Source: a bacterium HR28
GTDB taxonomy: Bacteria > Chloroflexota > Chloroflexia > Thermomicrobiales > Thermomicrobiaceae
Direction of reading: 5' to 3'
DNA: 64,000 bases
Assembly: GCA_002898255.1 (NCBI GenBank)
Contig: BEIE01000001.1
Span: 372,001-436,000 of the forward strand
A program made the translations under genes and the position numbers. The notes beneath the pieces are model-generated. The model did no database searches, was not told where the DNA came from, and saw only the letters and a list, made by a program, of their open reading frames with translations. This document shows, in pieces, positions 55,060 to 58,383 of the stretch. Every line of letters begins with the position of its first letter. The stretch's first letter is position 1.

Positions 55060-56271
55060 TCACCGAGTCACCGTGAGTCCAATGAGTTCGCCCATTTCGC
55101 GGAGCTGCTCGCGGGCGCGTTCTACGTCGCGCCCCTCCCGAGCCGCCACAAGCAGCCGATCGGCTGCCTCGGCCAGCACGGCGATCGCCCGCGGGGTATC
55201 AAGGTCGTCCGAGAGCGCTGCCGCGAGCTCGTCGCGCAATGGGGCCAGGTCAAGCGGCGTTGCCTGACCACCAACCACATTCACTGCCTCGCGCAAGCGC
55301 TGGACAAGTGGCTCAAACCGCGCCGGACCATCATCTTCATACGCAAACGGCGTCCGGTAGTGATGGCTGAGAAGATAGAGGCGGATCGCGTCGCCAGTGT
55401 GGCGGCGCAGCGTGTTACGCACCAGCACGAGATTCCCCAGCGACTTCGACATCTTAGCGCCCTGATATTCAACCATGGCGACGTGCACCCAGAAACGTGA
55501 GAACGGCCTGAGGCCGGTGTAGCCTTCCGACTGGGCAATCTCACTCTCGTGATGCGGGTAGATCAGATCGGAGCCACCACCGTGCACATCGATCTGTGGG
55601 CCAAGGTACTTTATCGCCATCGCGCTGCACTCGATGTGCCAACCAGGACGTCCTGGACCCCAGGGGCTATCCCAGGTCGGCTCACCAGGTTGTGCCGCCT
55701 GCCAAAGAACGAAATCGAGCGGGTCTTCCTTCCGCGGATCTTGCGGATCGGCGCCCCGCTCGGCCGAGAGGCGAATCATCTCCTCGCGACTACAGCGACA
55801 CAGATGCCCGTAGTCAGGATCGCTGGCAACACGGAAGTAGACATTGCCGTCACGTACGTAAGCTGCACCCTGCTCGAGCAGTCGCTGGATAATCTCGATC
55901 ATCAGCGGTATTTCTTCCGTGGCGCGAGGAAAGACTGAAGGGAAAAGCACGTTGAGCGCATTCAGGTCTTCCTGGAACTGCCGGACATACCGATCCCCGA
56001 GCCGATCCCATGGCTCTCCCACCTCACGTGCTTTGCGTAGGATGTCGTCGTCGATATCTGTAATGTTTTGCACATACTTGACACGCCAGCCATGATGCTG
56101 ACAGATACGATTGAAGACATCGAACACCAAATACGTCATTGCGTGCCCCATGTGGGTCGTGTCATAGGGGGTCACGCCACACACATAGAGCCGGACGGTA
56201 TGCCCGTCGGCCGGAGAGAAAGGCTCGACTCGTCCAGTCAGCGCATTGAACAGCTGCACGGCCTTGCTCAC
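55060..56271 (-). CDS. Cysteine ligase of the MshC/CysS family
   Basis: This class I synthetase-fold protein of about 403 residues shows LYVCGVTPYDTTHMGHA (the zinc Cys and HIGH-like motif), YVQNITDIDD, WHIECSAMAIKYLG, GGGSDLIYPHHESE and the KMSKS loop AKMSKSLGNL. The TPYD-TH-GHA form and the end of the protein soon after the helical bundle fit MshC (cysteine:GlcN-inositol ligase) better than CysS, which normally reads PTVYDYAHIGNA and is 60-70 residues longer. It adenylates cysteine in either case. The start may be GTG 56271 or GTG 56259. It is divergent from the peroxiredoxin gene. Confidence 0.8.
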   Translation of the reverse strand: MSKAVQLFNALTGRVEPFSPADGHTVRLYVCGVTPYDTTHMGHAMTYLVFDVFNRICQHHGWRVKYVQNITDIDDDILRKAREVGEPWDRLGDRYVRQFQEDLNALNVLFPSVFPRATEEIPLMIEIIQRLLEQGAAYVRDGNVYFRVASDPDYGHLCRCSREEMIRLSAERGADPQDPRKEDPLDFVLWQAAQPGEPTWDSPWGPGRPGWHIECSAMAIKYLGPQIDVHGGGSDLIYPHHESEIAQSEGYTGLRPFSRFWVHVAMVEYQGAKMSKSLGNLVLVRNTLRRHTGDAIRLYLLSHHYRTPFAYEDDGPARFEPLVQRLREAVNVVGGQATPLDLAPLRDELAAALSDDLDTPRAIAVLAEAADRLLVAAREGRDVERAREQLREMGELIGLTVTR

Positions 56272-56359
56272 TCCCTCCAGTACGCGCGCTGCTCGCTTTC
56301 GGTATCGTACCATCGGAGCATGATGCAGATGTCGGTTCGGTTGGGAGGAAGGAAGGACG

Positions 56360-56836
56360 ATGGCAGGCCAGGTCGGTGAACGAGCTCCAGATTTCCGTCT
56401 CCCCAGCACGCTTGGTCAGCCGCTCGCCTTGAGTGAAATCGTACGCGAGCGCATCGCCGTTCTCGCCTTCTTCCACTTCGCCTTCACAAGCGGTTGAAGG
56501 AACGAGTTGTCCCAGTTGTGGGACAAGATCGAGGAGATTCGCGCGCTCGGCGCCGAAGTCTACGCGATCAGCTGCGACAGTCACTTCGCTCAGGCAGCGT
56601 GGGCACGCGAACTCGGGGTCGATTTTCCCTTCCTCAGCGACTGGAGCCGCGAGGTCATCACTGCTTACGACCTGAAAATCGACGAGTTTATCGGGTACCG
56701 TGAGGTCCCCGCGCGGGCAATCGTCATCGTCGACCGTGACGGCACGATTGTCTACCGCGAGCGGGCACCCCTGCGTGCGCTTCCGGACGTCGAGGCGGCA
56801 CTCGCCGCTCTCCGTTCACTCGCGGTGCGGCGCTGA
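56360..56836 (+). CDS. Candidate selenocysteine peroxiredoxin (in-frame TGA at the active site)
   Basis: The ATG at 56360 follows GGAAGGA. The frame encodes GERAPDFRLPSTLGQPL and AVLAFFHFAFTSG, then meets TGA at 56495-56497 (codon 46). It continues in the same frame as RNELSQLWDKIEEIRALGAE, the SCDSHFAQ segment and VPARAIVIVDRDG to a TGA at 56834-56836. In AhpC/TSA proteins this site reads T-x-x-C, and here it is T-S-G-TGA, so the TGA replaces exactly the peroxidatic Cys. A hairpin at 56507-56526 fits a bacterial SECIS. Read through, the product has 158 residues, a normal peroxiredoxin. The conserved Pro before the site is His39. The alternative is a pseudogene or a sequencing error. Confidence 0.85.
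56507..56526 (+). promoter_or_regulatory. SECIS-like hairpin after the in-frame TGA
   Basis: TTGTCCCA (56507-56514) and TGGGACAA (56519-56526) form a perfect 8-bp stem with the 4-base loop GTTG. The loop begins with G and lies 17 bases after the TGA, inside the range known for bacterial SECIS elements that bind SelB. The stem is part of the coding sequence. Confidence 0.75.
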
Positions 56837-58219
56837 GCTAACTACCGGCGACGCCGGATGACTCGATGGTGGCGCTGCCTCCCACAGTCGACGCAGAGCC
56901 GCTTCGACCACACGGCGGGTGGCCGGCGCAGGCTGTCCCACCTTGAGCTGGACGAGTTCCGGTGGGAACAGGAGATCGAGCGTCCACTCCATCGCTAACC
57001 GGATACGACGATCCCAGCGCGGGATGTGCAGCAGCGCGTAGGTGCGCCAGAGCCACCAGGCGAGGAAGCCATCAAGCGTCACCCGACCAAGCCAGGCGAT
57101 CGCAGCATGATCGCCAAGCGTGACCATCATGCCGCGCGTGCGATACCGCATCGGAGCGAGCTCGCGGTGGTGCAAGGTAGCCAAGAGATTGCGCGCCAGC
57201 AACCGAGCTTGCCGCACTGCGTGCTGGGCGGTCGGCGCATAGGGCCGACCAGTTGTCGGGTCGGTGACAGCTGCATTATCGCCGAGCGCCCAAACGTTCG
57301 TCATGCCATTGACTCGCAAGAACTCATCGACGACGATCCGTCCCCGTTCATCAAGCGGAAGACCAAAGTTCCGCACAATCGGGTTCGGTTCCACGCCGAT
57401 CGCGCTGACGATGGTCCGTGACTCCAGAACCGTCCCATCGTCGAGCAGAACGGCAGCAGGTTCTACGCGGACAACCTTGCGGCCCAGCAGTACCTCGATC
57501 CCGCGCCGCTGCAGCTCCCGTACAGCACGCACGGCGGCTGTCTCAGGAAAGCTCGTGAGCAGGCGTGGCAAGGCCTCCACCAGCACCACCCGCTCCGTTC
57601 CCGGCCGAATGTTCTGGTAATACCGGAGCGCATGCGTGAAGAGGCTGCGGATCTCAGCCGCGACTTCCACCCCTGTTGGCCCGCCCCCGATCACCACCAC
57701 CGTCAGTAAGCGCTGCTGCTCCTTGGGATCCGCTTCAATATCGGCTTGTTCGAGGAGATCGATAAGGTGGTTCCGGAGCGCAAAGGCGTTCGCGAGTCGC
57801 TGGACATCGAACGCGTAGTCGTCAAGCCCCGGAATGCCGAACGTGGCCGGTACACCACCGAGCGCCAGAACGAGATGGTCGTACGGGAGCTCTAAGGGCT
57901 CCTGGCGATGTTGGTACAGCCCGTGCTGGATCGTGACGACCCTCCGCTCAAGGTCAACGCCGGTGAGTTCGCCGGCGTAGAGCCGAGCATGGGGGACGAC
58001 TTGCCGAATTGACGTCAGAATGGTTTCAACCCGTAAGGCTCCTGAGATCACTTCTGGCATGAGCGGATAGAAGACGAACGCGTTCTCGCGGGAGATCAAC
58101 GCAACCTCGATCTCCCCCCGACGTGCGGCCCGTCGGAGTTCGTGTGCTGCTGTCACCCCAGCGAACCCACCACCGGCAATGACGATCCGGACAGGTCTCG
58201 TGCGAGCTTCCGTCGTCAT
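56816..58219 (-). CDS. Type II NADH dehydrogenase (NDH-2)-like flavoprotein
   Basis: The ATG at 58219 follows AGGTAGG. A start at 58258 would add 13 residues. The 467-residue protein has IVIAGGGFAGVTAAHEL (FAD), VVVIGGGPTGVEVAAEI (NADH), VWALGDNAA and a C-terminal WRTYALLHIPRW amphipathic membrane-attachment region, as in NDH-2. It would pass electrons from NADH to quinone without pumping protons. Its 3' end overlaps that of the convergent peroxiredoxin gene by 21 bp. Confidence 0.9.
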   Translation of the reverse strand: MTTEARTRPVRIVIAGGGFAGVTAAHELRRAARRGEIEVALISRENAFVFYPLMPEVISGALRVETILTSIRQVVPHARLYAGELTGVDLERRVVTIQHGLYQHRQEPLELPYDHLVLALGGVPATFGIPGLDDYAFDVQRLANAFALRNHLIDLLEQADIEADPKEQQRLLTVVVIGGGPTGVEVAAEIRSLFTHALRYYQNIRPGTERVVLVEALPRLLTSFPETAAVRAVRELQRRGIEVLLGRKVVRVEPAAVLLDDGTVLESRTIVSAIGVEPNPIVRNFGLPLDERGRIVVDEFLRVNGMTNVWALGDNAAVTDPTTGRPYAPTAQHAVRQARLLARNLLATLHHRELAPMRYRTRGMMVTLGDHAAIAWLGRVTLDGFLAWWLWRTYALLHIPRWDRRIRLAMEWTLDLLFPPELVQLKVGQPAPATRRVVEAALRRLWEAAPPSSHPASPVVSSAPHRE

Positions 58220-58383
58220 GAGCAACCTACCTCTTCGTCGTGGCGTTACCCCCGCCACGGCACGAACCCTTCATTGTATCGCACAGAAGCAGCCCTGCAG
58301 GATGGCGGAGTTCTGCCCTGTTCCCCACCATGCCGCGCTTCCTCGGTTACGATTGCCGAGCGAGAAATGAAAGGAGTTGTGCA

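Follow-up and report, generated by a model that had tools for sequence, protein, structure and literature searches.

A predicted selenocysteine-containing peroxiredoxin gene of bacterium HR28 and its relatives in the Chloroflexota

A gene located at positions 56360–56836 (plus strand) of the window, the 64,000-nucleotide stretch of bacterium HR28 DNA analyzed here, is almost certainly a real selenoprotein gene. Judged from its sequence, it would encode a one-Sec peroxiredoxin of the AhpE/BCP-like type, with predicted selenocysteine (Sec) insertion and peroxidase activity. The gene comprises 158 codons, with a putative Sec codon at codon 46 and a stop TGA at 56834–56836; UGA thus appears to be used twice in the same gene, once for Sec and once for termination. 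Sec-containing peroxiredoxins are a known family, and the HR28 protein is a further member of it. An earlier note on this DNA had proposed a genuine selenoprotein, and the proposal is supported by the Sec machinery of the genome, the conserved TGA, purifying selection and the alternation of Sec and Cys among homologues.

Reading frame and conservation of the in-frame TGA

The AhpC/TSA frame opens with the ATG at 56360, and its sole in-frame TGA is found at 56495–56497 (codon 46, plus strand). A purine-rich run, GGGAGGAAGGAAGGA, begins at 56343 and carries a Shine-Dalgarno-like AAGGA (56349–56353, plus strand) 6 nt before the ATG. When the read-through product was compared with the Pfam AhpC-TSA model, the whole domain was covered at 108.5 bits (cut-off 26), whereas the downstream fragment beginning at TTG scored 62.8 bits alone. 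This match bears out the description, given in the earlier note, of a good AhpC/TSA frame that is broken by the TGA and then resumes. The TGA had also been assigned to the exact place of the peroxidatic Cys (T-S-G-U); the sequence, orthologue and structure alignments agree, and the TGA column coincides with the peroxidatic Cys of solved peroxiredoxins (‘aftsgc’ against ‘afspvc’ or ‘aftqvc’).

Five matches from the same genus, Thermomicrobium (83–93% identical), and nine orthologues from the same family (47–65% identical) were found to contain exactly one TGA each, at the same codon and without frameshifts; in one same-genus genome, only 54% complete, no match to the peroxiredoxin was obtained. 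Pairwise dN/dS was mostly 0.02–0.2 (about 0.1) both before and after the TGA, which indicates that the two halves are selected as one protein. The gene is arranged head-to-head with cysS, encoding cysteinyl-tRNA synthetase (55060–56334, minus strand), and this order was kept in 15 of the 15 family genomes with the gene, which shows that the peroxiredoxin copies are orthologues; cysS is context and lies outside the Sec mechanism. A gene for an NAD(P)H dehydrogenase-like flavoprotein (Pyr_redox_2; 56816–58258, minus strand) converges on the peroxiredoxin gene, an arrangement kept within the genus. In five genomes of genus g3 of the same family (G107–G111), selA was present and no close Sec-peroxiredoxin copy was detected (the best matches had E values of about 1e-6 to 1e-13), so the gene may have been lost or replaced in that genus.

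On the evidence of the window by itself, a frame that is sound except for a single internal stop would also fit a pseudogene produced by nonsense mutation, or a sequencing error that turned TGC or TGT into TGA. Both were rejected as highly improbable given the conservation of the TGA and the purifying selection: all 15 family genomes with the gene carry this TGA and no further lesion, and dN/dS remains about 0.1 downstream of it. The random stops and frameshifts that would have counted against the earlier note's proposal were absent from the relatives, and a base-calling error at 56495 was ruled out because isolates and MAGs that were sequenced independently also carry the TGA.

As the earlier note had anticipated for standard gene calling, a mechanical ORF call does yield a fragment that starts at TTG 56507. 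The locus could accordingly be read as a two-part gene, with translation ending at the UGA and resuming at this TTG to give a 109-residue protein; the ORF is present, and an AAGGA lies 5 nt upstream as a possible ribosome site. In relatives, however, CTG or ATG stands in place of the TTG and the AAGGA has not been conserved. Purifying selection is just as strong on the 45 codons ahead of the UGA, and a protein made by restart would be missing both its catalytic residue and its first beta strands. With neither the start nor the AAGGA conserved and the N-terminal codons under selection, restart was rejected as very unlikely, and a single read-through frame is retained as the reading of the locus.

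The hairpin downstream of the UGA and the Sec-decoding genes

A predicted bacterial SECIS hairpin is located at 56507–56526 (plus strand), with the sequence TTGTCCCA-GTTG-TGGGACAA. The stem (56507–56514 paired with 56519–56526) is perfect over 8 bp and begins 9 nt from the UGA, and the GTTG loop (56515–56518) begins 17 nt from it, in agreement with the seventeen bases given in the earlier note. The hairpin folded better than dinucleotide shuffles (z = -2.3). Because it sits inside coding sequence, a synonymous-codon null matters, and it also folded better than sequences in which the amino acids were kept and the synonymous codons redrawn according to local usage (p = 0.0035). Across six members of the genus, which are not independent, the synonymous-recoding test gave p = 0.0005–0.0035.

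In homologues, the apical loop is fixed at about 16–17 nt past the UGA and is nearly always AGTT or a close variant. Three stem pairs were swapped on both sides between genera of the Thermomicrobium family (register 43: TA/CG, TA/GC and CG/TA), and three two-sided compensatory changes were likewise found in the f31 family (register 42: TA/GC, AT/TA and GC/CG). Stem registers differ between clades, mostly among 42, 43 and 44, and choosing them sequence by sequence makes the pairing look better. The hairpin just 3′ of the UGA, clear in HR28, is weak in some relatives: in genus g5 the synonymous-recoding test gave p about 0.13–0.18, and no clear hairpin was seen at the usual spot after the UGA in L033–L035, L041 and L058–L060.

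The earlier note had proposed a genome-wide search for selA, selB, selC and selD. In the HR28 genome (3.12 Mb, 99.6% complete), the whole set of Sec-decoding genes was present: a tRNA-Sec with anticodon TCA (73.1 bits, cut-off 47), selA (548.6 bits), selB (336.6 bits, or 365 with its C-terminal part) and selD (359.5 bits). The selD gene (L048, G000:C1:1068420–1069352, minus strand) has one in-frame TGA, in C-A-G-U-A-G, and selenophosphate synthetase would therefore itself be a selenoprotein. Among the 15 family genomes with the peroxiredoxin gene, selA exceeded its cut-off in 14, and the remaining genome, 78% complete, contained selB at 350 bits. Since selA is common in the class (over the cut-off in 119 of 158 genomes), its co-occurrence with the gene is a consistency check and a weak discriminator.

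A second predicted selenoprotein and one further candidate were observed in the same genome. The second selenoprotein, L062 1981–2421 (minus strand; G000:C6:121480–121920), is a SelL-related, Prx-like protein with a UxxC motif (LRGLR-U-PYC) and its own AGTT-loop hairpin on a GC-rich stem, and it is conserved in nine relatives. The candidate, L085 1501–2700 (plus strand; G000:C1:955411 onward), has an open frame of nearly 530 codons for a putative selenoprotein that combines a thioredoxin-like part with NHL repeats, and its in-frame TGA falls in YC-U-INCLHVLP (UxxC).

For the peroxiredoxin, the ribosome would reach the UGA at codon 46 of the mRNA, where SelB carrying Sec-tRNA-Sec would bind the hairpin 9–29 nt downstream (loop AGTTG, starting 16–17 nt after the UGA) and selenocysteine would be inserted. 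Translation would then continue until the gene's ordinary stop, the UGA at 56834, where no hairpin of this kind is expected.

Sec/Cys alternation and the active site

In an alignment of 81 homologues, all from the Chloroflexota except one from the Acidobacteriota, the peroxidatic column was occupied by TGA in 53 and by Cys in 28, and no other residue or codon was found there. The UGA is kept in the orthologues and Cys stands in its place in other homologues. The comparison with Cys and Sec homologues advised by the earlier note returned Cys at this column in the wider relatives. At least four switches between Sec and Cys on the tree are forced by well-supported branches. Four Sec-peroxiredoxins of uncultured Chloroflexi (L058–L060 and L126) share the FFHFAFT-xx-U motif of Thermomicrobium yet are placed among the Cys homologues and show no evident hairpin at the usual spot, through either convergence or a misplaced branch.

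The frame would be open whatever the UGA encodes, and another amino acid could be supposed at this position, through a changed code or near-cognate readthrough by Trp or Cys. Such a reading is extremely improbable, given the canonical tRNA-Sec and selA, selB and selD of the genome and the alternation with Cys only. A changed genetic code was rejected because the peroxiredoxin gene itself and 7 of the 9 neighboring predicted genes end in UGA as an ordinary stop. Selenocysteine is thus preferred as the residue at codon 46.

The AlphaFold model of the protein (pLDDT 94.6) has a peroxiredoxin fold, in keeping with the AhpC-TSA score above the curated cut-off, and its top Foldseek matches were Bcp4/PrxQ-type peroxiredoxins (TM 0.83–0.91). 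In all aligned rows, the active-site positions were T or S at T43, U or C at U46 and R at R119. No resolving or second Cys was conserved across the Sec clade, Cys72 being present only in Thermomicrobium and the L058–L060 group. For this reason, the likeliest mechanism would be a one-Sec cycle, in which the selenolate would attack hydroperoxides to form a selenenic acid that would then be reduced by an external thiol, the presumed reductant.

Seven residues ahead of the catalytic position, the HR28 protein has His39 where the PxxxTxxC motif has Pro; the absence of this Pro is treated as a variant, since the domain, the fold and the other active-site residues are those of a peroxiredoxin. At this position, H, Y, F, V, L or I was found in 48 of the 53 Sec rows, including 42 of 42 in the main Sec clade and likewise two smaller Sec groups, whereas P was found in 25 of the 28 Cys rows. 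The Pro persists in two other Sec groups and has been lost from one Cys group. The association between Sec and Pro loss was represented by four independent pairs on starred branches (two with, one against and one neutral) and five on all branches, and cannot reach significance because independent events are so few; the hypothesis that all Sec rows lacking the Pro share one origin was not rejected (p-AU 0.062).

Relation to known peroxiredoxins and biological meaning

The Sec-containing peroxiredoxin family (Prx, PF00578/COG1225, TxxU) has as its type member PrxU of Eubacterium acidaminophilum (PMC1794560, PMC9312934, PMC13188914). The HR28 protein shares with it the peroxiredoxin fold, Sec in place of the peroxidatic Cys in T/S-x-x-U, the hairpin just past the UGA and Cys homologues in relatives, but it scored 46.4 bits against the NCBIfam PrxU equivalog NF040737, below the curated cut-off of 270. 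In a 2026 review, PxxxTxxU is described as highly conserved in Sec-peroxiredoxins (PMC13188914), unlike in the HR28 protein with its His for the motif Pro. The best sequence and fold matches were BCP/PrxQ-like proteins of thermophilic archaea (Aeropyrum pernix 2cx3/4gqf, 2ywn and Sulfolobus Bcp4 3hjp) and Mycobacterium AhpE (1xvw). Their peroxidatic residue is Cys, where HR28 has the predicted Sec in a clade with no conserved resolving Cys, and in the two that were aligned the region of the motif Pro is kept in the form typical of Cys-type peroxiredoxins. Prx-SUH (NF045827) and the SelL-related/Prx-like UxxC proteins (NF040769) are thioredoxin-fold selenoproteins of the same superfamily, but their Sec lies in different motifs, and the HR28 protein reached 19 of 298 and 34 of 120 bits, respectively.

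Among titles and abstracts on selenoproteins of Thermomicrobium or the Thermomicrobia, none was found to describe this peroxiredoxin gene. A Sphaerobacter AhpC is named in a supplementary figure of a 2017 tRNA-Sec paper, so part of the Sec-peroxiredoxin clade may have been noticed earlier (PMC5330540).

Ordinary gene calling would lose or truncate the peroxiredoxin across the genus and in many Chloroflexota, and peroxide defense in these organisms is easily misread. Thermomicrobium is an aerobic thermophile. According to the 2026 review, aerobes rarely retain selenoproteins (PMC13188914), and the lineage offers a test case for why some of them, hot ones included, keep selenium in peroxidases. 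It is possible, though less likely than not, that the Chloroflexota hold a large separate Sec-peroxiredoxin lineage in which Sec relaxed the near-universal Pro of PxxxTxxC (His in Thermomicrobium). The lost Pro makes it possible to test which active-site features a peroxiredoxin requires solely on account of a sulfur nucleophile. If Sec did relax this Pro, the active site would shield and activate its chalcogen differently, in aerobic thermophiles that would be expected to avoid selenoproteins.
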